This document shows positions 2,671-58,645 of a DNA stretch of 64,000 bases, in pieces. Numbering within the stretch: position 1 is the stretch's first letter; each line of letters starts with the position of its first letter. A program made the position numbers and the translations under genes. The stretch spans positions 5,270,001 through 5,334,000 of the forward strand of contig NC_003552.1 of assembly GCF_000007345.1 (NCBI RefSeq), in the 5' to 3' direction. Origin of the DNA: Methanosarcina acetivorans C2A. Lineage in GTDB: Archaea; Halobacteriota; Methanosarcinia; Methanosarcinales; Methanosarcinaceae. Under the pieces are notes generated by a model. The model had not been told where the DNA came from. It saw only the letters and a program-made list of their open reading frames with translations, and did not search any database.

Positions 2671-3284
2671 TTAAATATTTTTAAACATACTTCCAATAAA
2701 CCTTCAAAAAATCCGGTTGGTCTGACGTTTCAAAAGGTCCGAAGCCTGATCTGCCTTTTTTACTAAACTTGAAATGCAGACAGACTCTTCCGCTCAGACC
2801 AACCGGCAACCCCATAAAAACATAGGAGGTCTTCAAAAAATTAGATAGAAAAAGCACTTATTTTTTTACACGGCTTGATTCCTGAAATTTTTGTTATATG
2901 AACTAAAAGTCAGGTATCCCTTCAGCAAAAATCTAGACGAGGTATAGAATTACCTTTTACTTAAAGCTCATTTTCAATTTTCAATTCGAACCGTGTTTTT
3001 CATTCAGCATTTTTCCGGATTTTTAAATGCTGTCATCGTCTGTTTGATCCCCGGAATTTTAAATTCACATCCTTCAAAACCGGCTGATCCCGAAATCCGC
3101 GAAAATAAAAAAACAGAAAAAACAAATTTTAGCCCCGTTCTGCTCTCTTCAAAGGTCCGAAAATTCTTGCACCAAAAACAAACCCTGTTCTCCGATCCAA
3201 AACACTTCTTTCAACCTCCCAGGTGATCGAAAATTACCCAGCAGGACGGCCCGAACCCTATGTAAAGCGCAGGAGAAATAAATA
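2671..3284 (+). repeat. Repeated leader element, copy 1 (candidate structured RNA upstream of the 3285 gene)
   Basis: A 600-nt non-coding leader seen, complete or truncated, at seven places in the window. A TATA-like TTTAAATA lies at 2671-2678. A perfect 13-bp inverted repeat CCGGTTGGTCTGA (2713-2725) / TCAGACCAACCGG (2794-2806) encloses a conserved TTTCAAAAGGTCCGAA box and a small inner stem (TCTGC 2750-2754 / GCAGA 2776-2780); it is followed by a GGAGGT at 2825 with no reading frame behind it. A second long-range pair is ACACGG (2868-2873) / CCGTGT (2991-2996). A second, related module starts near 3149 (CAAAGGTCCGAAAA) and ends in the GGAG that serves the start codon at 3285. It probably acts in cis on the gene downstream. 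I do not recognise it as a known riboswitch. Confidence 0.7.
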
Positions 3285-6200
3285 ATGAAAAAAATGAAAA
3301 GTAAAATACCCGTTCTTTGCACAATACTTCTTCTGATGATGGCAATAACCCCGGCATCTGCAACGACTTCCGACTGGCTATTAGACGGAGGCTCATCAGG
3401 AGGGGAAGTCACCCCGGTTGCTAATTTCAGTGCAGAAGTTATTTCCGGTACCGTCCCACTGACTGTAAATTTCACCGACGAGTCCACAGGGGCTGAAAGC
3501 TGGGCCTGGGACTTAGATGGCGACGGAATCTTAGACTCCACGGAACAGAACCCTGTCCACACCTATACAACCGCCGGGGAATATTCGGTAAACCTGACGG
3601 TGACCAGCTTCAACAGCAGCGATTCGGAGATTAAAACCGGTTATATCACTGTGATGGCCGACGGATCTTCCGGTGGAGAAAGTGGTGAAACACCTGTTGC
3701 AGTCGCACCTGTGCCTGATTCATCTGATACGGCGATGTTCAAGAACAACCTCTATCACACCGGGGTTACATCGCAGGCGGGTCCTATTGATGACCCTGAC
3801 CTGGTATGGTCTGCGCACACGGGGTACATGAATACGGACCCCCTTGTCTTAGATGATCTTTTAGTATCCGTGTGTAGCCACAATATAAGTGTCCATAACC
3901 GCACGACGGGAGAATATATCTGGAACACCGTTACATCCGGAGAGAATCTTGGGCCTGCGTGCTACGGTAACGGGAAGATATTCTACCCTGAAAGTTCCAG
4001 GGGAAAACTCTCTGCATATGATATTAGAAACGGGGAGCTTTTATGGAATATAACAGGACTTGGGGGTTCTTATTCACAGTTAAACACCCCCGTGGTATAC
4101 GAAGACCACCGGATCTATTTTGGAACATGTTATGGGAACCCATCCGCTTATTATTGTTACTATGACAACGGAACCCAGTGCTGGAGTTATGAAGGAGGCG
4201 GGTATTACTGGGCAGGAGCTGCAGTAATCGGCGATTACCTTGTATTCGGAGGGGAGGATATGAACCTGACATCCCTCAACAAGAATACGGGTGAGCTTGT
4301 GGATGAGATTAACGTCTCCGCTGTCTTCTCGATACCGAATAGCGGAAGCCAGATCCAGTCGTCGGTGTCATATGATGAAAACAGCAGTCGCTGTTACTTC
4401 ACGACGACTTCCGGATCTTGCTGTGTGATAGGGTTTGATAAAAGCACAGGGAAATTTGTCAGGACCGATAAGGCTTCACATAGTATAGGGCCAAGCACTT
4501 CGACTCCAGCCATATATAATGGACGGCTCTATGTTGGAGTCGGCAAGATGTTCAAATCTGGTGGGGAGCCCTGTCTTTTCTGCCTGAATGCATCAGACCT
4601 GTCGGAAATATGGAAGTACACTGCAAACGGCATCATCCAGTCTTCGCCCACAGTGTCCACCTACTATGAGAATTCAACAGGGGACATTTACATCTACTTT
4701 ACAACAAATGTCAAAAACGGAACGGTGTACTGTCTGAGGGACAATGCAAGTAACACCGATGCCATGGAGGTCTGGCACTGGACTCCTCCTGAGAGTATGC
4801 AGCAATATGTTCTTGGTGGGGCTGTAATTAAGCAGGGATATCTATTTTTTGGAAACAATGAGTGGAAAGGAGTAGCGGGTTGTACTTTCGCCCTCAAAAG
4901 AAGCGATTTCGGTCCTGTTGTTGCAGACTTTTCCGCTGAAAACACCTTCGGAAAGGCCCCGCTCAACGTATCGTTCACTGATGAATCCACAGGCTATGGT
5001 ATAAACGAGTGGCTCTGGGACTTCGGGGACAATACCACTTCGAATGAGACGAACCCCTATCATATCTACGAAAAGAACGGCTTATATACGGTAAGCCTCA
5101 CTGTTACGGGTTCTGGCGAGTCCAACACCTCCACAAGAACAGGACTTGTCAATGTCACGGATCAGATAACTCCGGTAGCGGACTTTTCATATAGTGTTTC
5201 CGGCACTCAAAGTCCCGTTTCAGTTGAATTCACCGATACCTCTGATAACATCAACTCTGCGACCACCTGGTCCTGGGACTTTGGGGACAATACGACCTCA
5301 AACCTTCAGAATCCTACCCATCAGTATGCCGAAGAGGGCACGTACAGCGTAACCTTCACCGTTTCGAGCCAGTACGAAAATAATACTGTTAAAAAATCCG
5401 GTATTATAGTAGTCGAGCCCTGGAATGTTCCCGAATGGGCTACAAACGATTCCTGGCCGCAGTTCCAGAAAGATGCACAGCACAGTGGCTTTTCCGAAGG
5501 ATCTGCCCCGTCAACAGCCACCAGACTCTGGGTAAGTGACGACATCGGTGCTGTCAGAAGTTCTTCGGTTGCAGTAGCAGGGGGCAGGATCTTTGTAAAC
5601 TGCAATGACAACGATACCGGAATATCTGTTATCCGCAGTCTCAGCCAGCAGACAGGTGCCATCCTTGCCGACCACGGGAAAGCGGATGGCGGTGGTTTTT
5701 ATGGTTCCTGGTCTTCACCTGTTTATGACGACGGGAAAGTGTGGTGTGGCCTGAACAACTACCCCGAAGGTACCACCTACAACTCGGTAAACGGGGGCAC
5801 GATGGTTGCAGACGGGAAGGTATTCTCATCTAACTGGAACGGTAACCAGTATTTCTGCTTCGAGGAGTCCACCGGAGAAGAATTATGGAATTTCAGTGCA
5901 CCTGTTTCATCTTATGCACAGTCATGTCCCGCGTATAAAGACGGCAAAATTTATGTTCTCTATTGGCATGGCTTCAGTGGTGACGGTGAAAATTTGGTCT
6001 ACTGCCTCAATGCGAGTACCGGAGAGGCGATCTGGAAACATGCCAATATAAGCAGCAACCCCTGCGGATCTCCGATGATATCCGATGATGCTGTCTACTT
6101 TACGACCTATAACCCGGAAGGAGAAAGTGCACAGCTTTATGCACTGAGTATCACTGACGGTTCAGTATTGTGGTCCAACACCTCTATCACAGGTACAGAT

Positions 6201-7154
6201 TCGACCCCGGCCTATGCTTATGGGAATATATATGTAAGCAGTGGCTATTCTCGTTATATCACATATTGCTTCAATGCCACAACTGGAGAGCCGGTCTGGG
6301 AGACAGATCCCGAAGACAATATCGGGTTTTGGACCTGCTCGCCTGCGGTTGCCGACGGCAAGGTTTACGTAGGGACTGGAGGTTCCGGGATCGTCTGCCT
6401 TGATGCCTCCACCGGAGAGCTAATCTGGCAGGACGAAGGGGGTGGCAGTACACCTGCAATCGTCGATGGAGTTGTATACTCAGTCGGTAAAGACGGCAAG
6501 GTCTATGCATACTCTTCAAGTCAGTCCGTCGCTGATTTCACAGCCAATCCAATTTCTGGTGAAGCTCCCCTGACTGTTAATTTCACCGACCAGTCCAATG
6601 GTGCTGAAAGCTGGGCCTGGGATTTTGACAGCGACGGAAACGTGGATTCCACCGAGCAAAACCCGGTCCATACTTACACTGCTGCAGGTAATTACACCGT
6701 GAACCTCACAGTTACAAACGCGGAGGGAAGCGATTCCGAGGTGAAGACTGAGTATATCACGGTTGAGGAAGCTTCTTCAGGGAGCCAGAACGGGTCATCA
6801 AGTGTGTCCCTGAATGTCACCATTGTCCCGGTGATTTCCCTTGAGGTCTCCCCTTCAGCCCTTGAATTTGGGGAACTGTACCCTGGAAAAACCAGTGAGC
6901 TCCAGTACCTAACTCTCAAAAACAGAGGAAGCTGCGACGTAAATGTTACAGCCGTAGTCTGTGACTCCTCTGCCGGAGATGAGCTTTTCAGCCAGGGATT
7001 GCTGCTGGACTCTCAGCTATGGAATAATTACTGGAAAGTAGTAGGAGGGAACAGTCAGGAAAACACTTCAGTAGCTCTGCAGGTTCCGGCTGATTATGCC
7101 GGTTCAGGAAACAAAAAAGGGACAATAACCTTCTGGGCGGAGGCAGCCAAATAA
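3285..7154 (+). CDS. Secreted PKD / double PQQ-propeller surface protein
   Basis: A 1289-residue secreted protein. The signal peptide (about 1-26, ending PASA-TTSDW) follows an ATG with GGAG ten bases upstream. Domains in order: PKD (about 44-122), PQQ-type propeller 1 (about 145-540), two PKD domains (about 545-625 and 632-712), PQQ-type propeller 2 (about 725-1080, starting WPQFQKDAQHSGFS), PKD (about 1085-1165) and the C-terminal beta-sandwich (about 1175-1289) found also at the end of the upstream gene, to which the last 500 bp are nearly identical. Propellers of this kind bind partners or form rigid scaffolds; no quinone-enzyme active-site residues can be claimed, so an enzymatic role is not supported. 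It is preceded by leader copy 1. No transmembrane anchor is visible, so attachment is probably non-covalent or through glycans. Confidence 0.92.
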   Translation: MKKMKSKIPVLCTILLLMMAITPASATTSDWLLDGGSSGGEVTPVANFSAEVISGTVPLTVNFTDESTGAESWAWDLDGDGILDSTEQNPVHTYTTAGEYSVNLTVTSFNSSDSEIKTGYITVMADGSSGGESGETPVAVAPVPDSSDTAMFKNNLYHTGVTSQAGPIDDPDLVWSAHTGYMNTDPLVLDDLLVSVCSHNISVHNRTTGEYIWNTVTSGENLGPACYGNGKIFYPESSRGKLSAYDIRNGELLWNITGLGGSYSQLNTPVVYEDHRIYFGTCYGNPSAYYCYYDNGTQCWSYEGGGYYWAGAAVIGDYLVFGGEDMNLTSLNKNTGELVDEINVSAVFSIPNSGSQIQSSVSYDENSSRCYFTTTSGSCCVIGFDKSTGKFVRTDKASHSIGPSTSTPAIYNGRLYVGVGKMFKSGGEPCLFCLNASDLSEIWKYTANGIIQSSPTVSTYYENSTGDIYIYFTTNVKNGTVYCLRDNASNTDAMEVWHWTPPESMQQYVLGGAVIKQGYLFFGNNEWKGVAGCTFALKRSDFGPVVADFSAENTFGKAPLNVSFTDESTGYGINEWLWDFGDNTTSNETNPYHIYEKNGLYTVSLTVTGSGESNTSTRTGLVNVTDQITPVADFSYSVSGTQSPVSVEFTDTSDNINSATTWSWDFGDNTTSNLQNPTHQYAEEGTYSVTFTVSSQYENNTVKKSGIIVVEPWNVPEWATNDSWPQFQKDAQHSGFSEGSAPSTATRLWVSDDIGAVRSSSVAVAGGRIFVNCNDNDTGISVIRSLSQQTGAILADHGKADGGGFYGSWSSPVYDDGKVWCGLNNYPEGTTYNSVNGGTMVADGKVFSSNWNGNQYFCFEESTGEELWNFSAPVSSYAQSCPAYKDGKIYVLYWHGFSGDGENLVYCLNASTGEAIWKHANISSNPCGSPMISDDAVYFTTYNPEGESAQLYALSITDGSVLWSNTSITGTDSTPAYAYGNIYVSSGYSRYITYCFNATTGEPVWETDPEDNIGFWTCSPAVADGKVYVGTGGSGIVCLDASTGELIWQDEGGGSTPAIVDGVVYSVGKDGKVYAYSSSQSVADFTANPISGEAPLTVNFTDQSNGAESWAWDFDSDGNVDSTEQNPVHTYTAAGNYTVNLTVTNAEGSDSEVKTEYITVEEASSGSQNGSSSVSLNVTIVPVISLEVSPSALEFGELYPGKTSELQYLTLKNRGSCDVNVTAVVCDSSAGDELFSQGLLLDSQLWNNYWKVVGGNSQENTSVALQVPADYAGSGNKKGTITFWAEAAK

Positions 7155-10829: not shown

Positions 10830-11629
10830 ACTAATCTGAAAAGTTTCTGCAAATACTGTGCTCTATCGTAATTTGTGTATGTATTGCCATATTTTCAGGG
10901 TCTGATGATGAATTTCTGACAATCATATTATTCTTCTACTACCAATGAAAGTATGTGAGCTTACTATTAGTTTTGTTTCAATTAACAATTAAAGGTTGAG
11001 ATATATTCTTCAGAAAGTTTTGCACATAATAGAGCCACAATATTATTTTGATGGTAAGACTTGATAACTAATTGCTTATTTAAAGTATTTTTATGATTAA
11101 AAGTTCTTTTTTGATATGATTACTCATTTGAAAAAGTAACCTCAGACTAAAGGTTCTAAGAGACTTATAAAAAAGAAAAGTATGGAATCGACTCTGAAAA
11201 TGTTTATTTGGAAAAGTTTCACATTCATTTTTTGAGGCAAAGATGGAAGTTGTTAGCCAACCGGCTAAGAACAATTAGCCAAACATTTTTATTTGTAGAA
11301 GTAACAAATAATTAATCTGTTTAATCATATATAAATAGTTTAATCAGATATTCCTGATAAACTTCTAACTTTCAGAAAAAAAGTATACCATAGATTGCAA
11401 ATTTGTATCCAGCTAAGATACAAATATCTCATACAACATGATTTTTATGACAACATTTATATTTAAGTCTAAAAAAGTTAAAAAATCACCAGAGAAATCA
11501 GGAATATATACAGAAGGCATCCAAGTATGTTAAAAATTGTTTATTAATCATAATATATATTTATAGATACAACACTATACTGAAATTTCGGTAAACTGCA
11601 AATATTGTTTCAGATAGTTCCTTAGTAAT

Positions 11630-11935
11630 CCGGTTGGTCTGACGCTTCAAAAGGGTCCGAAACCTGATCTCGCCGCCCCACCAGACACAAAATGCGGCCC
11701 GATTCTTCCGCCCAGAACAACCACCAACCCCAAAAAAACATAGGAGGGTCTCAAAAAAAGAAACTAAAAGACTTATTTTCTATACACGGCTCTTGCCCTA
11801 AATTTGTTTTAAACGACCTGAAAATCAGTTTTGCTTTTCAGCAAAAAATTTTGATGAGTATTGAAGTATCTTTACTTGAGGGTGTATTTTTAGTTCTTAA
11901 TTCTAGCCGTGTGGAAGTACTGGAATCACTGTAAT
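11630..11935 (+). repeat. Repeated leader element, copy 2 (5' part only)
   Basis: Left arm CCGGTTGGTCTGA at 11630-11642, then the TTCAAAAGGGTCCGAAACC box. The inner stem is GCCGC (11672-11676) / GCGGC (11694-11698), different in sequence from copy 1 but still paired. The right arm near 11713 is degraded, and a TAGGAGGG follows. The second helix is ACACGGCT (11784-11791) / AGCCGTGT (11905-11912), a perfect 8-bp pairing. After about 11935 the copy ends and an unrelated 240-bp segment runs to the start of the 12175 gene; the second leader module is missing here. Confidence 0.6.
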
Positions 11936-12174: not shown

Positions 12175-15100
12175 ATGACAAAAAATATGACAAAAAATGA
12201 GATACAAAACAGGATACAAAATATTGCCAAACACGGCTTCTTGTTAAGTATATTTCTGATCCTGTTGTTAGTCTTTGCCGGGTCCGCGTCGGCACAAACT
12301 ATTGAAGTCAACCCAGGGGATGATGTCATCTCCATCATTGAGGATGAAGCACAGGCTGGAGATGTCATATACTTCAACCCTGGAACTTATAATATGGGTG
12401 GCAGTTGGAATATATACGACAAACCTGTATCATTAATAGGTGCAGGTGCAGATGAGGTAACTATTCTTGGGGGTAAAAGAGTACGCCTTAACTACTATGA
12501 TTATGCAGGTGCTTCCGATATCCGGGTTGAGAATATCACTTTTTCAACGGATATTATTATCTATGGGACGGATTCTTATGACAGCAATCTTGTAATCAGA
12601 AACTGTGTCATGAATCAATATACAGATCTAGATTACCTGAAGAACCTTGAAGTTTCGAATAACGTTTTTGCATCTGCCTCTAACCAAAGAAACACTATTA
12701 TAACCGTTAAGCAGCTGGACTTTTCCGGAAATCGGATGGATAAGGTTTATTGGAATATACTTTGGATTGATAGCGGTAAGATCACAGGCAACACCTTTAC
12801 AAACGTTACTGCACACTATGCAATTGAAATTGAGGGAGGCGATGACCTAACATTCAGTGATAATATTATTTCAAACTGCACCGAAAATGGAGGAGGTTTC
12901 TTGATAGATTATAAAAACGATCGCAATATTATTACCGGGAACACCTTTGACTCCAATTCTGTGGGAATTACTGTTGAAGTGGTAAATGGAGAAACCGGCA
13001 CCGGTAATAAGATCTACCACAACAACTTCATTAACAACACCATTAACATCGACGACGGTTCACCGGCCGGCTCAGTCCAGTATGTCAGCGATACTGTAAA
13101 TTACAACTACAAGGGCAAGTCTTACACGTCAGCCCTTGGAAATTACTACGACAACTACACAGGCGCAGATGCTGATATAGATGGCATTGGTGACATTCCT
13201 TATACAATTGGCTTGGGGAGTGACACTGCACCCCTTATGGGTAAAGTCACAGTCAGCGGGGAGAATATAACAATTACAGCAGCATCGGGTTCTTCCGTTC
13301 CAATCGCTGATTTCACAGCAGCACCGACTTATGGAAATGCGCCTCTTAAGGTCAACTTTACAGATACTTCTACTGATGATGTCTCTTCCTATTCATGGGA
13401 TTTTGACAACGACGGAACTGTGGACTCAACTGAGCAGAACCCCTCACATACCTACGAAACTGCAGGTACCTACTCTGTCAACCTTACGGTTGCCAATTCA
13501 GCCGGGAGTGATACAAAAACACAGACAGACTATATCAAGGTAATAGACACAGAAAATCTCGAATCCGAATGGCCGGAGTTCCAGAAAGACAGCTCCAATA
13601 CCGGCTACGGCTTCAGCTATGCCCCAACAAGGAACCCGAAACTCCTCTGGCAGAACCTGACTTCTCCTGAACAGGAACCCTGCGGGAGCGGAGGCATCAA
13701 TGTCCCGCCAGTGATTTCCGGAAACACGGTTTTCGTAACTGCCGGAAACGCCTCTGTCTGGGCCTTTGATAAAGATACAGGAAACCTTCTCTGGTCAAAG
13801 GAACTTGGCGGGGACCTGACACAGACTTCCACTCCTACCCTCGGGAACGGAACACTTTTTGTCCCTACCATGGAAGGAGACCTCTATGCTTTTGACCCGG
13901 AAACCGGAAACGAGCTCTGGAACATACACGTAACCGACGGCAACCTGGAGTGTCCCATCACCTATTCTGACCATAAGCTCTACATCGGAGACGGGCTTGA
14001 AGGAGGAACCGGGACAAAATATTATTACTGTTATGACGACAGCGGGAACCTTGTCTGGAAACACGAAAACACAAACAGTTCCGGCTTTATATGGAGCGGC
14101 TCGGTAGTTGTCGGAAATTACCTGGTCTACCCTGTCTTCGAAGGCAAGATGGTTTGTCTCGAAAAAGATACCGGAACCTTTGTAGATGAGGTTGATTTCA
14201 GTAAGAGTTCGGATGTCTCTTTTGCACTTTCCGACCCCGGGATGTTCAGAAGTTCGGTAACCTATGCTGATGGTGCATTGTATACATCCTCGGAAAGAGG
14301 CCAGGAAACAGGATACTGCTTCAAAGTAGGGTTCAACCCTGATACAGGCCAGTTCCTGGATACCGGCTGGACAGCTTCAATAGGGTTTTCAACCTCGACT
14401 CCCGTAGTGTATAACGGAAGGGTCTATGTGGGACATGGAGAACACGGCGAGACCGGGTCAATGTTCTGCCTGAACGATTCCGACGGATCGGTCATCTGGG
14501 AGACCCCGGTCAGCGGCGGAGTAAAATCCTCTCCTGTCGTTTCGGTTGAAAACAACAAACCTTACATCTACTTCACCGAAGCCATCGTGGACGGCTCTAT
14601 CTACTGTCTGAACCCTGACGGGTCTCTTGCCTGGCACTACAACCCTGCTGATGACGATGCATATACCCTGCAGGGTGCAGCTCTTTCCGGCGGCAAAGTC
14701 TACTACGGAACCGATAACGGATACCTATACTGCATCGGACAGGGAGAAGCTCTTCCTCCAGAGGTAGACTTCAGTTCGGACAAACAGACAGGTTCCTTCC
14801 CATTGACTGTTTCCTTCAAAGACAGGTCCTTTAATGCAAACAAATTCCTCTGGGACTTCGGGGACGGAAACACTTCAACTGAGGTAAACCCTGTCCACAC
14901 GTATACTTCCGCGGGCAGCTACACCGTAACCCTTACCGTTGCAAATAACCACGGAGAGGATACCAAAGTTGTCGAAAACTACATTTACGCGGTCAAAACC
15001 CCTACTACCTGGCCTGTCAAAAGCGGGGAGTCCATCCAGGCAGCTATTAATTCAGCGGATTCCGGAGACATTATCAAGGTCTATCCCGGGGAATACCACG

Positions 15101-18021
15101 AAGTCCTGACCATCGACAAGGCTCTGACCCTAAAAGGCATCAGGGACCCTGTCCTGAATGCTTCGGGTTTCACAGGCTCTTCAGGAATAACCATAAGTGC
15201 TGACGATGTCGAGATCAACGGCTTTGAAATTACAGGAACCGAAGAGATGTGCTTTGCGATTACCGTCAATGCAAAGAACGCACTGATAGAGGACAACCTT
15301 ATAGATAACTGCGCTGAAGGCGTGATGTTCACAGGGACCGGAAACACTCTCCGGCAGAATAATATTTCCAACTGCTGGGACTTTGCAGCCGTGCTTGACA
15401 GCACGGGAGACAACCGGATCTATCAGAACACCTTCATCAACAACAATGGCAGGAAAATGGGCGGTTCAAGCGACCATATTTCAGGCGGGTCAGGTTCGTT
15501 CTTCCAGAGCCCGGAGCCCGTAGAATACCTGTGGGAAGGAGAAAAACTGACAGGGTACATGGGTAATTATTACGATGACTACACCGGAAATAACTCTGAC
15601 GGGGATGGAATCGGGGATGTATCTTACACTGCTGACGGAGGGACCGACCAGTACCCGCTTGTGATGCCGTATTCATACTACGTTGAAGAGCAGGAAAACG
15701 AGTCCGTTCCTGAGGATTCCTGGTACCAGTTCCACGGAAAGGTTGACCACCTTGGCTACTCCGAAAGCGGGCCAAAGACCAACCGGACTGAGTGGGTAAG
15801 TGAGGACATTGATGCAATCAGCAGTTCCTCCCCTGTTGTGGCCGGAGGAAAAGTCTTTGTGATATGCGGGGCCGGAGGAATGGAAGAGAGCACGGATGAT
15901 ATTCCCCAGCTAGTAGCCCTGGACGAATTTAACGGAGACATAATCTGGAACGTCAGCATTCCGAAAGCCGTATACGGTTCCTGGGCTTCCCCTGCTTATG
16001 ATAACGGCATGGTCTTTACGGCCACAGGCCCCGAACTTGGATGTTACGACGCCGAAACAGGAGAAAAAATCTGGTGTTTCAATGATACTGTGGGAAGTCA
16101 GGGTGCGGTTAACAGCGGACCTGCTATTGCGGATGGTATGGTAATATTTAGCGATTGGGACGGAAGCCATTACTACTGTCTTGACGAGGACACAGGGTAC
16201 CTGCTCTGGAGTTTTGAAGTTGTAGGAGACGGCCAGTCCGTACCCGCCTACGCGGACGGAAAGTTCTACCTGACAAGCTGGGGCTATGGGTCATCTTATG
16301 CAGGCCATGCTTACTGCGTGGACGCAGTAACAGGGGAGCAGGTCTGGCACATTAATAATATCGAACAGAACTTCTGCGGGTCCCCTGCTTATAAAGACGG
16401 GGTTCTCTACCTGACAACCTACAACTTCTACGGAGACGGAGACCTTCTTGCCCTGGACGCCGCTGACGGGAGCATAATCTGGCAGCAGACCATCCAGAGG
16501 ACGGATTCAACTCCTGCTTTTGCCTACGGAAATGTCTATGTTTGCGGAGGATGCGCTGGTTTTTCCAATGTGCAGACATACTGTTTCAATGCAACTACAG
16601 GCACACCTGTCTGGTCAACCCCTTCAAAAACAGGTGATAACGGAGGGATCGGAGACTGGACCTGTTCAGTAGCTGTTGCAGACGGGCTCGTTTATGTGGG
16701 AACCGCAGGAGACGGGTACTTCGGCTATGCCAATATTTATGCACTGGACGCCTTTACGGGAGAAGTAGCCTGGCACACCCCTCATGCGGGATCGACCCCG
16801 GCAATTTCGGATGGTATGCTTTTCAGTATAGGAGGAGACCAGAAAGTCTATGCCTTCAAGGACTCCCTCACTTCACCTGTTGCCAACTTCTCTGCAGACA
16901 TAACATCAGGCAATGCACCATTGACAGTCAACTTCACGGACGAGTCAACAGGCACTGTTTCGTCCTATTCATGGGACTTTGATAATGACGGAACTGTGGA
17001 CTCAACTGAGCAGAACCCCTCGAATACGTATGCATCGGCAGGTAACTACACTGTCAACCTTACGGTTACAAATGCAGAAGGAAGTGATTCCGATCTAAAG
17101 ACCGATTACATCACTGTATCTTCTACACCTGTAGAACCTGAACCAGTTGCTGCTTTCATTGCTGATGTAACTGGCGGGACTGCTCCTCTCATTGTGAATT
17201 TCACAGACCAGTCCACAGGTTCACCTACTGCCTGGGCATGGGACTTCGGGGATGGGGCAAACTCAACTGAGCAGAACCCCTCTCACACATACGTTTCAGC
17301 CGGAAATTACACCGTAAACCTGACTGTGGAAAATGCTGCTGGGATGGACTTTGAGTTAAAAACGAATTACATAGAAGTTTCCGAAACTTCCGGGTCAACC
17401 GTTACTCTCTATTTCGACCCTGAAAGTTCCTCAGTTTCAGAAAACGAATCTACTGAAATAAATATCGTTGCCAGTAATTTCCCTGCAGGTTTCTCGGGAT
17501 ACAACCTGACCGTTGCTATTGACGACCCGGCTGTTGCCGAGATAGTCAATATAGAATACCCTTCCTGGGCTCTGATTACTGAGAACTCTACCCTGCCAGG
17601 GACTTCTATCTACATGAAGACTGTTGACCTGGAAGATTCCGTTAAGGAAGGGGCAGCAGATGTTGTGCTTGCTACTCTCACTGTTTCTGGAAAGGAGAAA
17701 GGATCTGCAAACCTTTCGATAGGGGTTAAACGTCTGGAGGAAGATTCGGGAGACTCTATCGAACCAGCTCTTTTGACAGGAAAAATTGAGGTGACCCTTC
17801 TGTCTCCCCTACCTGATCAGGAATATGCTCCTAAGGACCTTGACGGAGACGGACTCTATGAAGACCTCACCGGAAATGGAGAGTTCAGTTTCGTGGATAT
17901 AGTGGCATACTTCCACAACATGGACTGGATAGAGGAAAACATGCCGGTGGAGTACTTCGACTTCAACGGAAACGGAAGGATAGACTTTGATGATGTAGTG
18001 GATATGTTTGCAATGATATGA
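12175..18021 (+). CDS. Giant NosD / PQQ / PKD surface protein with cohesin and dockerin domains
   Basis: A 1948-residue secreted protein. A long n-region precedes the hydrophobic signal core (about 22-40, GFLLSIFLILLLVFAGSASA). Domains: NosD/CASH-type right-handed beta-helix (about 42-350), PKD (375-458), PQQ-type propeller 1 (465-858), PKD (863-937), second beta-helix (944-1169), PQQ-type propeller 2 (1181-1561), two PKD domains (1567-1649 and 1654-1732), a cohesin-like beta-sandwich (about 1741-1872, VTLYFDPESSSVSENEST...) and a dockerin-like pair of calcium loops (about 1879-1948, DLDGDGLYEDLTGNG and DFNGNGRIDFDDVV). It is probably a surface scaffold or carbohydrate-binding protein. The start is supported by GTGGAG ten bases upstream. 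About 1.39 kb in the middle is nearly identical to the 30960 gene. Confidence 0.92.
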   Translation: MTKNMTKNEIQNRIQNIAKHGFLLSIFLILLLVFAGSASAQTIEVNPGDDVISIIEDEAQAGDVIYFNPGTYNMGGSWNIYDKPVSLIGAGADEVTILGGKRVRLNYYDYAGASDIRVENITFSTDIIIYGTDSYDSNLVIRNCVMNQYTDLDYLKNLEVSNNVFASASNQRNTIITVKQLDFSGNRMDKVYWNILWIDSGKITGNTFTNVTAHYAIEIEGGDDLTFSDNIISNCTENGGGFLIDYKNDRNIITGNTFDSNSVGITVEVVNGETGTGNKIYHNNFINNTINIDDGSPAGSVQYVSDTVNYNYKGKSYTSALGNYYDNYTGADADIDGIGDIPYTIGLGSDTAPLMGKVTVSGENITITAASGSSVPIADFTAAPTYGNAPLKVNFTDTSTDDVSSYSWDFDNDGTVDSTEQNPSHTYETAGTYSVNLTVANSAGSDTKTQTDYIKVIDTENLESEWPEFQKDSSNTGYGFSYAPTRNPKLLWQNLTSPEQEPCGSGGINVPPVISGNTVFVTAGNASVWAFDKDTGNLLWSKELGGDLTQTSTPTLGNGTLFVPTMEGDLYAFDPETGNELWNIHVTDGNLECPITYSDHKLYIGDGLEGGTGTKYYYCYDDSGNLVWKHENTNSSGFIWSGSVVVGNYLVYPVFEGKMVCLEKDTGTFVDEVDFSKSSDVSFALSDPGMFRSSVTYADGALYTSSERGQETGYCFKVGFNPDTGQFLDTGWTASIGFSTSTPVVYNGRVYVGHGEHGETGSMFCLNDSDGSVIWETPVSGGVKSSPVVSVENNKPYIYFTEAIVDGSIYCLNPDGSLAWHYNPADDDAYTLQGAALSGGKVYYGTDNGYLYCIGQGEALPPEVDFSSDKQTGSFPLTVSFKDRSFNANKFLWDFGDGNTSTEVNPVHTYTSAGSYTVTLTVANNHGEDTKVVENYIYAVKTPTTWPVKSGESIQAAINSADSGDIIKVYPGEYHEVLTIDKALTLKGIRDPVLNASGFTGSSGITISADDVEINGFEITGTEEMCFAITVNAKNALIEDNLIDNCAEGVMFTGTGNTLRQNNISNCWDFAAVLDSTGDNRIYQNTFINNNGRKMGGSSDHISGGSGSFFQSPEPVEYLWEGEKLTGYMGNYYDDYTGNNSDGDGIGDVSYTADGGTDQYPLVMPYSYYVEEQENESVPEDSWYQFHGKVDHLGYSESGPKTNRTEWVSEDIDAISSSSPVVAGGKVFVICGAGGMEESTDDIPQLVALDEFNGDIIWNVSIPKAVYGSWASPAYDNGMVFTATGPELGCYDAETGEKIWCFNDTVGSQGAVNSGPAIADGMVIFSDWDGSHYYCLDEDTGYLLWSFEVVGDGQSVPAYADGKFYLTSWGYGSSYAGHAYCVDAVTGEQVWHINNIEQNFCGSPAYKDGVLYLTTYNFYGDGDLLALDAADGSIIWQQTIQRTDSTPAFAYGNVYVCGGCAGFSNVQTYCFNATTGTPVWSTPSKTGDNGGIGDWTCSVAVADGLVYVGTAGDGYFGYANIYALDAFTGEVAWHTPHAGSTPAISDGMLFSIGGDQKVYAFKDSLTSPVANFSADITSGNAPLTVNFTDESTGTVSSYSWDFDNDGTVDSTEQNPSNTYASAGNYTVNLTVTNAEGSDSDLKTDYITVSSTPVEPEPVAAFIADVTGGTAPLIVNFTDQSTGSPTAWAWDFGDGANSTEQNPSHTYVSAGNYTVNLTVENAAGMDFELKTNYIEVSETSGSTVTLYFDPESSSVSENESTEINIVASNFPAGFSGYNLTVAIDDPAVAEIVNIEYPSWALITENSTLPGTSIYMKTVDLEDSVKEGAADVVLATLTVSGKEKGSANLSIGVKRLEEDSGDSIEPALLTGKIEVTLLSPLPDQEYAPKDLDGDGLYEDLTGNGEFSFVDIVAYFHNMDWIEENMPVEYFDFNGNGRIDFDDVVDMFAMI

Positions 18022-22875: not shown

Positions 22876-23142
22876 GAAAAGGAAGAAAAAAGAAAGCCGA
22901 ATAGAGCTGTTTTCCTCCTTTCTTTTTTTGAAATAAACTTCAGGACAAAAAAGTCAAAGATATATATTAAAATAGGTAACAAGGGAATTGTTAGTCAATA
23001 AACTAAGAATAATTAGCCAAAGATTTTTATCTGTAGAAGTTAAAATAATCAATTAGTTCAATCAGATACAATTAGTTCAATCAATTAGGTCAGGAAATAT
23101 CAAAATTTCCGCAGGCATATGTTCTAGATAAACTTTAAAACT

Positions 23143-23560
23143 CCAGTTGTCCTGACACTTCAAAAAGGTCCGAAACCTGATCTGACTGTAGTATCGAATT
23201 CGAAATGCAGACAGATTCTTCCGCTCAGACCAACCGGCAACCCTATGAAAATACAGGAGGTCTTCAAAAAGATAAGAAATTGAAAGCACTTATTTTTCTT
23301 TACACAGCTCTAGCCTGAATTTTTCCAGAATTCCGGAAAGTTAGGTATGCCCTTCAGCAAAAATTTTGATGAGTAACATAAAAATTTTACCTAAAGAGTA
23401 TGCTAGATTTTTAATTGGGGCTGTGTTTTCAAATCAGTACTTTTTCCGGATTTTGAATGCTGTTATCTTCTGTTTGATCCACGGAATTTTAAAGCCAAAT
23501 ACTTCAAAACCGGCTGATCCTGGAAGCTCAAAAATCCGTGAGCATAAAAAACAGAAAAAA
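23143..23560 (+). repeat. Repeated leader element, copy 3 (truncated at 3' end)
   Basis: Left arm CCAGTTGTCCTGA (23143-23155) and right arm TCAGACCAACCGG (23225-23237) pair only partly here. The conserved CAAAAAGGTCCGAAACCTGATCT box and CAGGAGG are present. The second helix has changed on both sides to ACACAG (23302-23307) / CTGTGT (23421-23426), extended by a C-G pair. The copy is intact to about 23560 and then gives way to about 200 bp of unrelated sequence before the 23762 gene, so the second module (CAAAGGTCCGAAAA ... GGAG) is missing. Confidence 0.6.
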
Positions 23561-23761
23561 CAAAATCCAACCCTTATTCGGCATGTCGACATAATAATTT
23601 AAACATTTTTCTTGATTCTGTTTTTGAATTAATAATCTCTAACTGAAATCAGTTGATAACGTTTACATATACTTGAAATTTTGGCTATACCAGCAACCAA
23701 TATGCTGGGACTCGTACCAAATTATATGATGTTAGAAGAAATAAAAGTGAGGAAGTAAGGT

Positions 23762-26700
23762 ATGAAAAAAATACATTATGTTTGTATGGTTGCACTGTTG
23801 AGCACAATGATGCTGGCGGTTGCACCGGCATCGGCGACGACCTGGAATGTAAGCACGGTTTCTGAATTGCAGAATGCAGCGGCAAATGCGGGTGAAGGTG
23901 ACACAATTTTTGTGCATAATGGAAACTATACGCTTACAAGCACCCTTTATCTTTACAAGTCAAATATCACATTCACAGGAGAGAGCAAAGAAGGAGTAGT
24001 CCTCCTTAGAGACAATGATTTCATTACTATAGGTAGCAATGGTGGACCAGCACCCGGATGCATAGTTGAGAATATGACCTTACTAGGCGATATAACATCT
24101 ACTAGTGGTGTGTTTGGTATCAGTGTGCGTTCTCCTGACTGTACATTAAGAAACTTAATTTTACGCGATATTCGCGATTGTGCAGTTATATCCTCTAACT
24201 CCGAAGATTGTAGTGGCCTTATTATAAGCAACTGCACATTTGACAACTCCGGGACCGAAAATTTTGCGATCAGTATTCTAGCCACCAATTCGATCATCGA
24301 GAATAATGTTATAAAAAATAATCAGTATGCTTATGGCCCCCTTTGTGTTCAAGCTCAAAACGTAACGGTTTCAAACAACCTTTTCATGAATAATCCATAT
24401 GCCTTTTATCTGGTTTACGCAGATAACTCATTAGTCTCTGGAAATGACATGGTGTCAACTGGAAATATTCTCATATATGACCCCGGGGAAGCTATAGTAT
24501 GGCAGCTCAATAATTTCAGTGAAAGTATTGTGTCAAACGAATGGGCCGGGCCATTACCATCCGTAAGCTACTGGAACTCCACCGAGCCAATAGAGTACAC
24601 CTACAACGGTGCGACCTACACCGGTTACCCAGGCAACTACTGGGGTGCTGCTTACACAGGCACCGACGCTGACGGCAACGGGATAGGGGATACGCCTTAC
24701 GAAGTACCCGGCGGTTTAGGCACTGACTATTCCCCACTAATATCTCCAAAAGAGAACTACGAGATCCTGGAAACCCCTGTCGCCAACTTCAATGCAGCCC
24801 CACTTTCCGGAAATGTACCCCTGGAAGTCCGGTTCACGGACCAGTCCACAGGCAGTGGGATTTCAAGCTGGGCCTGGGACTTTGACGGGGACGGAAACGT
24901 GGACTCAACCGAGCAGAACCCGAGCCACACTTACAACAGCACAGGGGCTTACACCGTCAGCCTGTCGGTCACTGGCCAACTGGGTTCGGACAGCAAAACA
25001 AAGGCTGACTATATCACCGTAAGAGAACCGGCAGAGCCTCCCATCGCTGACTTCAGCGCAGAACCCCTTTCCGGACCTGTACCCCTGGAAGTCCGGTTCA
25101 CTGACCTTTCCACAGGCGAAGGGATAGACAGCTGGAGCTGGGACTTTGATTCCGACGGGACTGTGGATTCCACAGAGCAGAACCCCACCTTTACTTACAG
25201 TGAAATCGGCAACTACACCGTAACCCTGACCGTTACCGGAACAGGCGGAAGCGACAGCAAAGTAAAGACGGATTACATCGTAAGCGAAGAAGCCGAACCC
25301 GCGTTCCCGACCGCAGGCTTTTCGGCCAGCTCCAGAGACGGAGCAGTACCTTTCACGGTCAAATTCACTGACAGTTCAGAAAACACCATTGACTGGGCCT
25401 GGGACTTTGACAACGACGGAAACGTGGACTCAACCGAGCAGAACCCGCTTTATACCTACTACACGGAAGGAAACTACACCGTCAAATTGACCGCAAGCAA
25501 TGGAAACGGCAGTGATGTCCTGGAAATTCCGGACATGATCACGGTTGCTCCGGAAAGACCCGCCTCTCCTGAGGACTCCTGGTACCAGTTCCACGGAAAG
25601 GTTGGCCATCTCGGTTACTCCGAAAACGGGCCCAAGGCCAACCGTACAGAGTGGATAAGTGAGGATGTTACTGATGCTATCGGCAGTTCCTCGCCTGTAG
25701 TTGCCGAAGGGAAGGTCTTTGTGATCTGCGGCGGAGCAGGAATGGAAGAAGAAACGACAGGCATCGTTCAGTTAGTAGCCCTGAACGAGTCTACCGGAGA
25801 CATAACCTGGAATGCCAGTATCCCGGAAACCGTATACGGTTCATGGGCTTCCCCTGCTTATGATGACGGCATGGTCTTTACAGCAACCGGCCCTGAACTT
25901 GGCTGTTACAACGCCGAAACAGGAGAAAAAATCTGGTGCTTCAATGATACTGTGGGAACACTGGGTGCGGTTAATGGCGGGCCTGCTATCGCGGACGGGA
26001 TGGTTATCTTCAGTGACTGGGACGGGCACCATTATTACTGCCTTGACGAGGACACCGGATACCTGCTCTGGAGTTTTGTAGTGGTAGGAGACGCTCAGTC
26101 CGTACCTGCCTATGCAGACGGGAAGTTCTACCTGACAGGCTGGACTTACACGCAGGGGTATGCTTACTGCGTGGACGCGACAACCGGGGAACAGCTCTGG
26201 AACATTAATGTCGAACGCAGCTTCTGCGGGTCCCCTGCCTATAAAGACGGAGTCCTCTACCTGACAACCTACAACTTCTCTGGAGACGGTGACCTCTTTG
26301 CCCTGAACGCTACGGACGGGAGCATAATCTGGCAGCAGACCGTCCAGAGGACGGACTCGACCCCGGCTCTTGCATATGGAAATGTTTATGTTAGCGGAGG
26401 ATGCAGTGGCTTTAGTGACAAGGAAACCTACTGTTTTAATGCGACTACAGGCGAACCTGTCTGGTCAATCCCCTCAATCGGAGACTGGACCTGGTCGGTA
26501 GCTGTCGCCGATGGGCTCGCTTATGTGGGAGGTTATGCTCTGGACGCCTTTACGGGGGATGTCGTCTGGAATTCTCCTTATGGCGGCGGTACTCCCGCAC
26601 TTTCGGACGGTATGCTTTTCAGTATAGGGAGCAATAAGAAAGTCTATGCCTTCAAGGACTCACTCTCTTCACCTGTTGCCAACTTCTCTGCAGACATAAC

Positions 26701-27550
26701 ATCAGGCAATGCACCATTGACAGTCAACTTCACCGATCAGTCCGCAGGTTCCCCTACTTCGTGGCTCTGGGACTTAGGAGATGGAGAAAACTCAACTGAG
26801 CAGAACCCTTCACATACGTACACATCAGCCGGAAATTACACCGTAAATCTGACTGTGGAAAATTCCGCTGGCACGGACTTCGAGTTAAAAACGGATTACA
26901 TAGAAGTTTCCGAGGATTCCGTGGCAACCATTACTCTCTATTTCGATCCGGAAAGTTCCTCAGTTTCAGAAAACGAATCTACTGAAGTAAATATCGTTGC
27001 CAGTAATTTCCCTGCAGGGTTCTCAGGCTATAACCTGACCGTTGCTCTCGACGATCCGGCTGTTGCCGAGATAGTCGACATAGAGTACCCTTCCTGGGCT
27101 CTGATTACTCAGAACTCTTCCTTGCCCGGGACTTCTATCTACCTGAAGACTGTTGACCTGGAAGATTCCATTAAGGAAGGGGCAGCAGATGTTGTGCTTG
27201 CCACTCTCACTGTTTCTGGAAAGGAATCTGGTTCAGCGAATCTTTCTATAGGGGTTGAACGTCTGGAGGACGATTCCGGAGACTCTATAGAGCCAGAGTT
27301 TTTAACCGGAAAAATTGAAGTGGCCCTTCTGTCTCTCCTGCCTGATCAGGAATATGCTCCTAAGGACCTTGACGGAGACGGGCTCTATGAAGACCTCACC
27401 GGAAACGGGGAGTTCAGTTTTGTGGATATAGTGGCTTACTTCCACAACATGGACTGGATAGAGGAAAACATGCCGGTGGAGTACTTCGACTTCAACGGGA
27501 ATGAAAGGATAGACTTTGATGATGTAGTGCGGATGTTTGCAATGATATAA
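23762..27550 (+). CDS. NosD / PKD / PQQ surface protein with cohesin and dockerin domains
   Basis: A 1262-residue secreted protein. A signal peptide (about 1-28, ending APASA-TTWN) follows a GAGG ribosome-binding site. Domains: one right-handed beta-helix (about 30-335, closing with the family block NSTEPIEYTYNGATYTG), three PKD domains (339-423, 425-507, 513-595), one PQQ-type propeller (603-967, starting SWYQFHGKVGHLGYSE), a PKD (973-1049), a cohesin-like domain (1055-1187) and a dockerin-like domain (1190-1262). The second calcium loop reads DFNGNERIDFDD, with Glu replacing the usual Gly, which may weaken calcium binding relative to the paralogues. The propeller is most like propeller 2 of the 12175 and 30960 proteins. 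No membrane anchor is seen; surface retention through cohesin-dockerin pairing is inferred. Confidence 0.92.
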   Translation: MKKIHYVCMVALLSTMMLAVAPASATTWNVSTVSELQNAAANAGEGDTIFVHNGNYTLTSTLYLYKSNITFTGESKEGVVLLRDNDFITIGSNGGPAPGCIVENMTLLGDITSTSGVFGISVRSPDCTLRNLILRDIRDCAVISSNSEDCSGLIISNCTFDNSGTENFAISILATNSIIENNVIKNNQYAYGPLCVQAQNVTVSNNLFMNNPYAFYLVYADNSLVSGNDMVSTGNILIYDPGEAIVWQLNNFSESIVSNEWAGPLPSVSYWNSTEPIEYTYNGATYTGYPGNYWGAAYTGTDADGNGIGDTPYEVPGGLGTDYSPLISPKENYEILETPVANFNAAPLSGNVPLEVRFTDQSTGSGISSWAWDFDGDGNVDSTEQNPSHTYNSTGAYTVSLSVTGQLGSDSKTKADYITVREPAEPPIADFSAEPLSGPVPLEVRFTDLSTGEGIDSWSWDFDSDGTVDSTEQNPTFTYSEIGNYTVTLTVTGTGGSDSKVKTDYIVSEEAEPAFPTAGFSASSRDGAVPFTVKFTDSSENTIDWAWDFDNDGNVDSTEQNPLYTYYTEGNYTVKLTASNGNGSDVLEIPDMITVAPERPASPEDSWYQFHGKVGHLGYSENGPKANRTEWISEDVTDAIGSSSPVVAEGKVFVICGGAGMEEETTGIVQLVALNESTGDITWNASIPETVYGSWASPAYDDGMVFTATGPELGCYNAETGEKIWCFNDTVGTLGAVNGGPAIADGMVIFSDWDGHHYYCLDEDTGYLLWSFVVVGDAQSVPAYADGKFYLTGWTYTQGYAYCVDATTGEQLWNINVERSFCGSPAYKDGVLYLTTYNFSGDGDLFALNATDGSIIWQQTVQRTDSTPALAYGNVYVSGGCSGFSDKETYCFNATTGEPVWSIPSIGDWTWSVAVADGLAYVGGYALDAFTGDVVWNSPYGGGTPALSDGMLFSIGSNKKVYAFKDSLSSPVANFSADITSGNAPLTVNFTDQSAGSPTSWLWDLGDGENSTEQNPSHTYTSAGNYTVNLTVENSAGTDFELKTDYIEVSEDSVATITLYFDPESSSVSENESTEVNIVASNFPAGFSGYNLTVALDDPAVAEIVDIEYPSWALITQNSSLPGTSIYLKTVDLEDSIKEGAADVVLATLTVSGKESGSANLSIGVERLEDDSGDSIEPEFLTGKIEVALLSLLPDQEYAPKDLDGDGLYEDLTGNGEFSFVDIVAYFHNMDWIEENMPVEYFDFNGNERIDFDDVVRMFAMI

Positions 27551-27816
27551 GAAAAAGAAAAAAAGAAAGCCGAATAGAGCTGTTTTCCTCCTTTCTTTTT
27601 TTGAAATAAACTTCAGGACAAAAAAGTCAAGGATTTATATTAAAATAGGTAACAAGGGAATCGTTAGTCAATAAGCTAAGAATAATTAGCCAAAGATTTT
27701 TATTTGTAGAAGTCAAAAAGAATCAATCAGTTCAATCAGATACAATTAGTTCAATCAATTATTTCAGGAAATATCAAAATTTCCGCAGCATATGTTCCGG
27801 ATAAACTTTAAAAACT

Positions 27817-28392
27817 CCAGTTGCTCTGACACTTCAAAAAGGTCCGAAACCTGATCTTTCTGCAATACGGAATTCGAAATGCAGACAGATTCTTCCGCTC
27901 AGACCAACCGACAAAACCCCCATAAAAACATCGGAGGCCTTCAAAAGGATCAGAAATTGAAAGCACTTATTTTTCTTTACACAGCTTTAGTCTGGATTTT
28001 TTTCTGGATTCCGAAAAGTCAGGCATGTCCTTCAGCAAAATTTTTATGTTATTCATCAAAATTTTACCTAAAGAGTGTGCTAGATTTTTAATTCGGGCTG
28101 TGTTTTCAAATAAGTATTTTTTCCGGATTTTGAATGCTGTTATCTTCTGTTTGATCCCCGGAATATTAAAGCCAAATACTTCAAAACCGGCTGATCCCGG
28201 AAGCTCAAAAATCCGTGAGAATAAAAAACAGAAAAACAAAATCCAGTCGCTTCCTGCTCTTCAAAGGTCCGAAAACCCTTAAACCAAAAACAACTTCCTG
28301 TCCGGTCAAACCGCTTTTCAAATATTCGGGAGTCCGGACATTTCCGCGCAGGACGACAAGACCCATATGAAACAGATAGGAGAAATGAAAAT
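27817..28392 (+). repeat. Repeated leader element, copy 4 (full length, upstream of the 28393 gene)
   Basis: Left arm CCAGTTGCTCTGA (27817-27829), right arm TCAGACCAACCGA (27899-27911), then a CGGAGG. The second helix is ACACAG (27979-27984) / CTGTGT (28098-28103), the same variant as copy 3. The second module starts at about 28259 (CAAAGGTCCGAAAA) and ends with GATAGGAG a few bases before the ATG at 28393; it contains its own pair TGTCCGG / CCGGACA. The flank from 27551 to 27816 is the shared 3' flank of the dockerin genes. A short open frame at 27879-28091 has a hydrophobic stretch but is broken in all other copies, so I do not call it a gene. Confidence 0.65.
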
Positions 28393-30439: not shown

Positions 30440-30959
30440 AATTCGAGCTGATCCCAAAACTCAAAATTAGACTAACCGACAACCCTATGAAAATATAGGA
30501 GGCTTTTAAAATGACTAGAAAACGATAGTGTTCATTTTTCTTTACGCGGTTCTTTCATGAAATTTTTCCAAAAAACTGGAAATCCAGGTATGCCTTTCAG
30601 CAAAAATCTTGACAAATGTTAAACCTGTTTACCTGAAAGGTCACGATTTTTTTCAAAAAAAGATCCGCGTTTTTCATATTTTCAGCGTTTTCTTTGTGTT
30701 GAAATGCTGTTTCTTCCGTTCGATCACCGGAAACTTCCAAAGGCAGGTGCTTAAAAATCGGTTGATCCTTAAAACCAGAATCCGTGAGAATAAAACAGAT
30801 ACACAAAATCCAGTAGCGTTCTACTTGCTTCAAAGGTCTGAAAATCCCTGAACCAAAAACAATTTTCTGCCTGATTAAACATTCCTTTGAATCTTCAGGA
30901 GACCGAACAGTTCTGTGCAGGCAAGTTGAACCCCATGACAAGAAAGGAGAAATAAATAT
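30440..30959 (+). repeat. Repeated leader element, copy 5 (5' truncated, upstream of the 30960 gene)
   Basis: Only the right half of the first module is present (AGACTAACCGACAACCCTAT, then ATAGGAGG near 30493). The second helix has a third sequence version, ACGCGG (30544-30549) / CCGCGT (30665-30670), again fully paired. The second module begins near 30830 (CAAAGGTCTGAAAA) and ends in AAAGGAG just before the ATG at 30960. The preceding 220 bp (30220-30439) show nothing recognisable. Confidence 0.6.
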
Positions 30960-37191: not shown

Positions 37192-37432
37192 TAAGGCTGT
37201 TTTCCTTCCTTCTTTTTTGGATTAAACTTCAGGACAAAAAAGTCCAGAATTTATACTAAAAGAGGGAAGAGGGGAATTGTTAGTCAATGGGATAAGAATA
37301 ATTAGCCAAAGATTTTTATCTGTAGAACTCAAAAATAATCAATTAGTTCAATCAGATACAATTAGTTCAATCAATTATTTCAGGAAATATCAAAATTTCC
37401 GCAGCATATGTTCCGGATAAACTTTTAAAACT

Positions 37433-38009
37433 CCAGTTGTTCTGACACTTCAAAAAGGTCCGAAACCTGATCTTACTGCATTATACAATTCGAAATGCAG
37501 ACAGACTCTTCCGCTCAGACCAACCGGCAACCCTATGAAAATACAGGAGGTTATAAAAAATATTAGGTCTGACAGCGCTTGTTTTTCTTTACACGGTTCG
37601 ATGCCTGAATTTGTTCCTTAAAACTGGAAACTCAGGTATGCCCTTCAGCGAAAATTTAGATGAGTATAGAAGTATCTTTACTTAAGGGCTCATTTTTAAT
37701 TTTCAATTCGAACCGTGTTTTTCATTCAGCATTTTTCCGGATTTTTGGATGCCGTTATCCTCTGTTCGATCACCGGAAACTTCCAGAGCAAATATTTCAA
37801 ACCCGGCTGATCATAGAATCTCAAAAATCCTTGAGAATAAAAAACAGAAAAACAAAATCCAGTCGTTTCCTGCCTTCTTCAAAGGTCCGAAAATCTTTGA
37901 ACCAAAAACAATTTCCAGTCCTATCAAACCGCTTCTCAAATTTTTGGGAGGCCGGACATTTCCGCGCAGGTGGACTGAACCCCTATGACAAAATAGGAGA
38001 AATGAAAAT
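37433..38009 (+). repeat. Repeated leader element, copy 6 (full length, upstream of the 38010 gene)
   Basis: Left arm CCAGTTGTTCTGA (37433-37445) pairs at 11 of 13 positions with TCAGACCAACCGG (37505-37517). The second helix is the longest of all copies, ACACGGTTCGA (37591-37601) / TCGAACCGTGT (37708-37718), perfect over 11 bp. The second module starts at about 37880 (CAAAGGTCCGAAAA) and ends with a small hairpin CCTAT / ATAGG whose 3' arm overlaps the ATAGGAG in front of the ATG at 38010. That arrangement could hide the ribosome-binding site. Confidence 0.65.
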
Positions 38010-44853: not shown

Positions 44854-44911
44854 AGCTGTTTTCTCCTATCTAAATATTTTTAAACATACTTCCAATAAAC
44901 CTTTAAAAAAT

Positions 44912-45653: not shown

Positions 45654-45656
45654 TCA

Positions 45657-56297: not shown

Positions 56298-56340
56298 AAA
56301 ACCCGTTAAATATCAGTTGAAACCGAAAAAGGTGAGGAAT

Positions 56341-57447: not shown

Positions 57448-57490
57448 AAACCTCGTTAAATATCAGTTGAAACCGAAAAAGGTGATGAAT

Positions 57491-58585: not shown

Positions 58586-58645
58586 AAAACTCCCTGAAAA
58601 ATAAGAAAGTTAGGAAAAAATCATGAAAGTCAGGTGATGAAGAAA

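Follow-up and report, generated by a model that had tools for sequence, protein, structure and literature searches.

Leader copies and surface-protein genes in the window

The window, that is, the whole stretch of 64,000 nucleotides that was analysed, running from 5270001 to 5334000 of the Methanosarcina acetivorans C2A genome, carries several genes for secreted proteins preceded by copies of a non-coding leader. Seven leaders had been described in an earlier sequence-only reading; all of them were present, with starts within 3 nt of those first given, and BLAST with the first leader as query returned the same seven places, each with an E-value of 2e-30 or better. The leaders and the genes behind them are listed below, the bit scores being those of the covariance models R1 and R2 (see the following section).

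2710..2834, + strand: first leader, module 1 (R1 128.9 bits; MFE z-score -4.6; sequence), with stem P1 2713-2725 with 2794-2806, conserved strands TTCAAAAGGTCCGAA (2729-2743) and TCTTCCGC (2786-2793), and CCCC..AGGAGG (2810-2829)
2835..3125, + strand: first leader, middle domain (covariation of P4, P5 and P6 on 21 leaders; P4 found unaided by RNAalifold), with a U-rich stretch at ~2860-2867, long-range stem P4 2868-2877 with 2987-2996, hairpin P5 3006-3012 with 3025-3031, and stem P6 3046-3049/3051-3054 with 3080-3083/3086-3089
3126..3283, + strand: first leader, module 2, supplying the ribosome-binding site (R2 113.6 bits; sequence), with P1 3135-3144 with 3240-3249, TTCAAAGGTCCGAA (3148-3161), Shine-Dalgarno (SD) sequence AGGAG (3271-3275), start codon at 3285
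3285..7154, + strand: secreted PKD and PQQ beta-propeller protein, 1289 aa (Pfam)
11627..11912, + strand: leader consisting of module 1 (11627-11752) and a portion of the middle domain, without module 2; gene start at 12175
12175..18021, + strand: secreted NosD/beta-helix, PQQ and PKD protein, 1948 aa (Pfam), with a dockerin-like C-terminus (sequence reading)
23140..23564, + strand: leader consisting of module 1 (23140-23265) and the middle domain, without module 2; gene 200 nt downstream
23762..27550, + strand: secreted NosD/beta-helix, PQQ and PKD protein, 1262 aa (Pfam)
27814..28390, + strand: full leader, module 1 27814-27942, module 2 28240-28390
28393..30219, + strand: secreted protein with PQQ repeats only, no PKD, 608 aa (Pfam)
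30440..30957, + strand: leader truncated at its 5' end, with the 3' half of module 1 (30440-30507), the middle domain and module 2 (30807-30957)
30960..37049, + strand: secreted NosD, PKD and PQQ protein, 2029 aa (Pfam)
37430..38007, + strand: full leader, module 1 37430-37555, module 2 37856-38007 (whole-leader MFE z-score -4.6)
38010..39686, + strand: secreted PQQ protein (PQQ only), 558 aa (Pfam)
44909..45711, + strand: decayed leader that comprises module 1 (44909-45032), a mobile repeat (45064-45308), the middle domain and a partial module 2 (45576-45711), without an intact gene behind

The module 1 ranges of the copies starting at 2710, 11627, 23140, 27814, 37430 and 44909 are covariance-model matches, and copy 30440 has lost most of module 1. 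Module 2 is intact at 3126-3283, 28240-28390, 30807-30957 and 37856-38007, decayed at 45576-45711, and lost from copies 11627 and 23140. The boxes TTCAAA(A)GGTCCGAA and CCCAT..ATAGGAG were as first described. The claim that every full copy has two related modules held for the homology of the modules, but not for the presence of both in every copy, since 11627 and 23140 lack module 2 and 30440 most of module 1. In the first leader, module 2 supplies the ribosome-binding site, with its SD before the start codon.

The whole M. acetivorans genome (5,751,492 bp, single contig) yielded 18 BLAST pieces corresponding to 14 leaders; the seven outside the window lie upstream of it (5207.5-5262.5 kb, + strand), and stand-alone modules were found outside the window besides the leaders. 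We rejected the possibility that the leader is a transposable or MITE element, as all 14 copies are on the + strand inside one 110-kb surface-protein cluster and are not dispersed. In contrast, the 245-nt mobile-type repeat within the decayed leader 44909 is dispersed on both strands, with 32 matching places genome-wide, about a dozen of them near full length and 94-100% identical. Two more inserts with inverted ends were observed inside other M. acetivorans leaders (5227165-5227300 and 5233355-5233480), one of the two within the P6 loop; an intact gene follows the leader with the insert at 5227165-5227300. A group II intron D1-D4-7 match was also seen on the - strand in a surface-gene cluster of another genome, G004 (L076:7818-7951).

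The proteins encoded behind the leaders are mosaics, and no Pfam domain is common to all of them; outside the window they include LRR_5 and PKD proteins (5242439 and the N-terminal 828 aa of 5227517; Pfam). The dockerin domains proposed earlier gave no Pfam match at 1e-3, although the shared C-terminus DLDGDGLYEDLTGNGEFSFVDIVAYF...FDFNGNGRIDFDDVVDMF reads dockerin-like. Out of 28 modules 2, 26 have a signal-peptide ORF starting within a few nt of their end, the other two being located at a contig end and in the pseudogene copy of the window. Upstream of most leaders, at about 100-200 nt, lies a promoter-like block TAGCCAAAGATTTTTATCTGTA (for instance 22950-23110 and 37260-37420), and between this block and module 1 there are 19-nt repeats AATTAGTTCAATCAGATAC in variable number (up to about six in G004). 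Elsewhere in the window, we observed a 1079-aa secreted protein made almost entirely of TPR repeats and without a leader (19131-22370), and four tandem paralogous lipoprotein-like genes of 366-391 aa with an N-terminal lipobox-like ..SGCT.. (55191-59812).

Architecture and homology of the modules

Each module consists, in this order, of the stem P1, the conserved strand CUUCAAAGGUCCGAA, a variable hairpin P2, the conserved strand UUCCGC, the closing strand of P1, and CCUAUgAAAAcAUAGGAG. A profile made from the M. acetivorans module 1 alignment and run against the leader loci of other genomes also matched second modules and a third module class, M0, which occurs singly and does not precede a gene (for example AACGGTTAGCCTGCCGCTTCAAGGAGGTCCGAATTCC..TTCCGCACAGGCTAACCAAACCCCTATGAAAACATAGGAG at 5260831). 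The P1 arms differ in sequence between M0 (GGUUAGCCUG/CAGGCUAACC), module 1 or M1 (CCGGUUGGUCUGA/UCAGACCAACCGG) and one type of module 2 or M2 (CCGUUCUGCU/AGCAGGACGG), the helix and its place relative to CUUCAAAGGUCCGAA and UUCCGC being the same in the three classes. Cognate arms had mean pairing energies of -14.6 to -19.3 kcal/mol vs. -8.2 with shuffled 3' arms, and five of the six cross-class means reached only -5.3 to -11.7 kcal/mol, the exception being the 5' arm of M0 with the 3' arm of M2 (-16.2 kcal/mol). A covariance model built from M0 and M1 with module 2 left out (R1) found modules 2 at 28-41 bits, and a model built from modules 2 only (R2) found M0 and M1. Since R1 and R2 find each other's modules, M0, M1 and M2 form one family of homologous modules.

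The complementarity between M0 and M2 could also be read as a sign of action in trans, M0 and a module 1 cut at the U-rich stretch being small RNAs that would act on leader mRNAs or bind a protein, with the leaders as targets. Downstream of the SD-like end of M0 there is no long ORF, and in most species an ACGAAA..TTTCGT hairpin with a T run comes next, which fits such a role. However, complementarity between M0 and M2 equally follows from common descent, and a trans model does not call for the fusion with a start codon that 26 of the 28 modules 2 show. We consider action in trans improbable.

Covariation of the predicted stems

The shuffled and slid-partner controls used here are not tree-aware, and paralogue kinship among six related genomes inflates the covariation figures, which for the 32 M0 and M1 modules, with P1, P2 and the SD hairpin assigned by hand, amounted to 59 double-changed paired cells vs. 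28.9 in shuffled alignments and 15-28 with slid partners. For 62 modules, in an alignment that was made to the covariance model and hence leans to the structure, the same controls gave 93.7 and 40-66 vs. 222 double-changed cells. The 21 full leaders, which share the long-range stem P4 (ACACGGYUC with GRRCCGUGU), the hairpin P5 and the stem P6, had 80.1% of their cells paired and 74 double changes vs. 39.9 in shuffled and 21-36 in slid alignments, under the same inflation by kinship. The fit among the three divergent module classes is more telling than these counts.

Covariation was present in P1, P2, P4 and the P1 of module 2, and RNAalifold recovered P4 and the P1 of module 2 unprompted. Module 2 alone showed weak covariation, its 15 close sequences being too conserved for a clear signal. 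The SD hairpin exhibited none in the 32- and 62-module sets: its CC/GG pairs hardly vary, and the third and fourth pairs are often broken. The folding energy of the first leader as a whole was slightly better than that of shuffled sequences (MFE z -1.5), the region 37424-38040 reached z -4.6, and some single modules were unremarkable (z -0.8 and -1.3). We also considered a leader peptide after module 1, where some copies have a KALIFLYTA-like run (e.g., near 23280), and rejected it on reading the sequences, as the copies differ by 2-nt indels and do not keep the frame.

Distribution among genomes

The leader was recovered in six of the 31 Methanosarcina genomes and in none of the 186 genomes of the order outside the genus, and the single marginal match among 238 genomes of the class (E 0.003 per genome) is at chance level. 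Searching with the module 2 model added no carrier genomes. Over all GTDB species, the box pattern occurred only in Methanosarcina spelaei, in one euryarchaeal MAG and in three scattered bacterial matches of the kind that chance would give. Stand-alone M0 modules with the same fold are kept across the carrier genomes.

The family of downstream genes is present in four of the 31 Methanosarcina genomes, so that leader and gene family are similarly narrow. This is consistent with passive inheritance, in which an ordinary long 5' UTR or promoter would have been copied with the duplicating genes and kept alike by recent duplication or gene conversion, its stems providing little beyond an accessible ribosome-binding site. 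In agreement with such a scenario, 5' UTRs of 100-500 nt are normal in Methanosarcina (PMC11409679), and several leaders that are decayed, have lost module 2 or were invaded by mobile elements still precede intact genes. The compensatory changes in P1, P2, P4 and the P1 of module 2, as well as the conservation of the fold in gene-less M0 across the carrier genomes, argue against passive inheritance, as do the comparisons that follow, and we regard it as rather unlikely.

Near-identical leaders before unrelated genes

Leaders 5219 and 5226 share two blocks, of 98.8% and 95.1% identity, with a mobile-type insert between them, and their homology stops about 16 nt before the start codon. A PQQ-type N-terminus stands behind one of these leaders and an LRR protein behind the other, indicating that leader and gene can be recombined. 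Taken with the lack of a Pfam domain common to the downstream proteins, this pair suggests that plain duplication is not the whole story. Moreover, identity between orthologous leaders exceeded that of four-fold sites in four of five pairs (0.93/0.76, 0.93/0.83, 0.90/0.91, 0.87/0.85 and 0.81/0.75, leader first), so that in most pairs the leaders are as conserved as these sites or more so. Simple duplication with the genes, the alternative named in the sequence-only reading, is weakened by these 95-99% identical leaders before unrelated genes, the mosaic domain content and the four pairs above four-fold sites. That reading had also named hits upstream of non-paralogous genes as possible support; the support is partial, since every target, even where unrelated genes stand behind the same leader, is a secreted mosaic surface protein from a single genus.

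The same near-identity of leader and upstream DNA before different ORFs, with its limit shortly before the start codon, would be expected if the leaders were homology blocks in a DNA-level cassette for the exchange of surface genes behind one promoter, the RNA fold being secondary; the many repeated segments within the ORFs would also fit. However, homology blocks have no need of compensatory base changes, and the fold is kept in divergent leaders. We therefore hold the cassette to be highly improbable.

The Shine-Dalgarno sequence and a model of the leader

Ensemble prediction on ten whole leaders gave a mostly paired GG in the module 2 SD of every one; copy Mac27814 was left out, its values having come from a wrong AGGA site. 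A local CCU, in the CCUAU hairpin, pairs with the SD at a probability >0.9 in five of them (Mac37430, Mac5213, Mac5219, Mac5262 and G4_3564); in the others the predicted partner is more distant or lies in the coding region. RNAalifold suggested an alternative in which the conserved UUCC strand pairs with the GGAGG of module 1 (UUCC/GGAG). This pairing would tie the receptor loop to the SD and is beyond a covariation test, both strands being nearly invariant. Since the SD is usually predicted to be paired, translational control is favoured. GGAGG is the consensus of Methanosarcina ribosome-binding sites (PMC11409679) and, together with the usual long 5' UTRs and the pairing of the SD, makes translational control at the SD the best-supported reading.

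We thus lean towards a cis-acting regulatory RNA in which a bound factor would set the translation of surface proteins via the SD of module 2. The leader, of about 570 nt, would form the 5' UTR of secreted surface-protein genes in some Methanosarcina; it comprises two homologous modules linked by a third structured domain. Each module would be an internal-loop receptor whose stems P1 and P2 hold CUUCAAAGGUCCGAA and UUCCGC against each other, and the strand CCYAU directly 3' of P1 would pair with the AUAGG of the SD sequence. A factor (ligand or protein) on the conserved internal loop would decide whether the SD of module 2 stays closed or is free, and would in this way set surface-protein translation. 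Module 1, together with the U-rich stretch that follows, may act before this as a further checkpoint, by attenuation.

We regard the leader as probably a so far undescribed RNA switch or regulator of surface-protein amounts. The family-wide cis-regulatory RNA of the sequence-only reading is supported in part, as a structured cis-acting RNA, by its covariation, its lack of an Rfam match and the 26 of 28 modules at start codons; regulation, switching by a bound factor in response to a signal, and a transcript start upstream of module 1 are inferred. If true, a genetically tractable methanogen would possess an RNA family that is missing from Rfam and combines tandem modules with stand-alone copies, and the way in which a large set of silent or conditional surface genes is set would be explained. 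The leader offers stems and conserved loops ready for testing, including the UUCCGC and GGUCCGAA strands.

The CobN neighbourhood

A gene for a CobN-type chelatase (PF02514) lies beside or within a module cluster in all six carrier genomes, with two CobN subfamilies represented, an association assessed by position only. Secreted CobN-type chelatases of 1559-1580 aa stand beside the clusters of G002 and G003, with matches at the same position in G004 and on contig 379 of G028. The second type, of about 2110 aa, is found in M. acetivorans (G000) and G024, and the second cluster of G004 contains a match. In the contigs that allow it to be seen, a module is divergent from CobN, at about 1-2 kb from the CobN start. 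The cluster of G003 is flanked by CbiMNQ, and genes with DUF4430, a domain named at the C-terminus of transcobalamins (PMC4350170), lie in or beside the clusters of M. acetivorans, G002, G003 and G024. A different iron or sulfur source is accompanied in M. barkeri by changes in CobN-like chelatases and in PKD surface proteins (PMC10846266).

The case of M. acetivorans is weak and could be due to chance, as its genome contains 12 CobN genes, and orthologous synteny reduces the associations in the other genomes to about two independent cases. By guilt by association, this neighbourhood hints at a corrinoid, tetrapyrrole or cobalt signal. It is doubtful that the leaders represent a new archaeal class of tandem riboswitches that would sense a corrinoid, another tetrapyrrole or cobalt and control a surface apparatus working with the secreted CobN-type chelatases. 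As a separate observation, the 320-420 nt upstream of the 2118-aa CobN gene (- strand; L012:8900-9320) are 76-78% identical among M. acetivorans, G004 and G024, and are possibly another conserved leader, judging from this identity.

Comparison with known RNA families

Scanning the window against Rfam 15 gave no match at the family gathering cut-offs; with E-values up to 1, we obtained one chance SmY match (16 bits) for the window leader and three chance matches for three M0 loci. The Rfam search suggested in the sequence-only reading thus found no family for the leader, and the literature searched described no native riboswitch for Methanosarcina.

Archaeal ribosomal protein L1 leaders are protein-binding autoregulatory mRNA leaders. 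The present leaders resemble them in a structure that overlaps the ribosome-binding site and in their restriction to a single lineage, but no RNA-binding protein is encoded behind them, and direct product feedback is impossible because the products of the leader genes are secreted. The genes adjoining the leader clusters, for CobN-type chelatases and, in certain genomes, also CbiMNQ and DUF4430, are a point in common with cobalamin riboswitches; in contrast, neither the leaders nor five flanking loci matched RF00174 or its relatives, and no B12-box-like core was seen. The leader of the Methanosarcina S-layer gene slmA1 is likewise the 5' UTR of a surface-protein gene, with a predicted RNA structure (159 nt; PMC3361143); it is set apart here by gene family and length.

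A conserved and covarying receptor domain in a 5' UTR, as is typical of riboswitches, was found here with controls that are not tree-aware and with the 5' UTR deduced from position. Tandem riboswitches acting on the SD, such as the glycine riboswitch, are known. The leaders differ from these by modules lying about 290 nt apart with further structure between them, by gene-less stand-alone copies, by the lack of an Rfam match and by their occurrence in one archaeal genus. They resemble them in having two homologous aptamer-like modules in one presumed 5' UTR, a conserved internal loop held by covarying stems, and an SD predicted to lie in an alternative hairpin next to the start codon.
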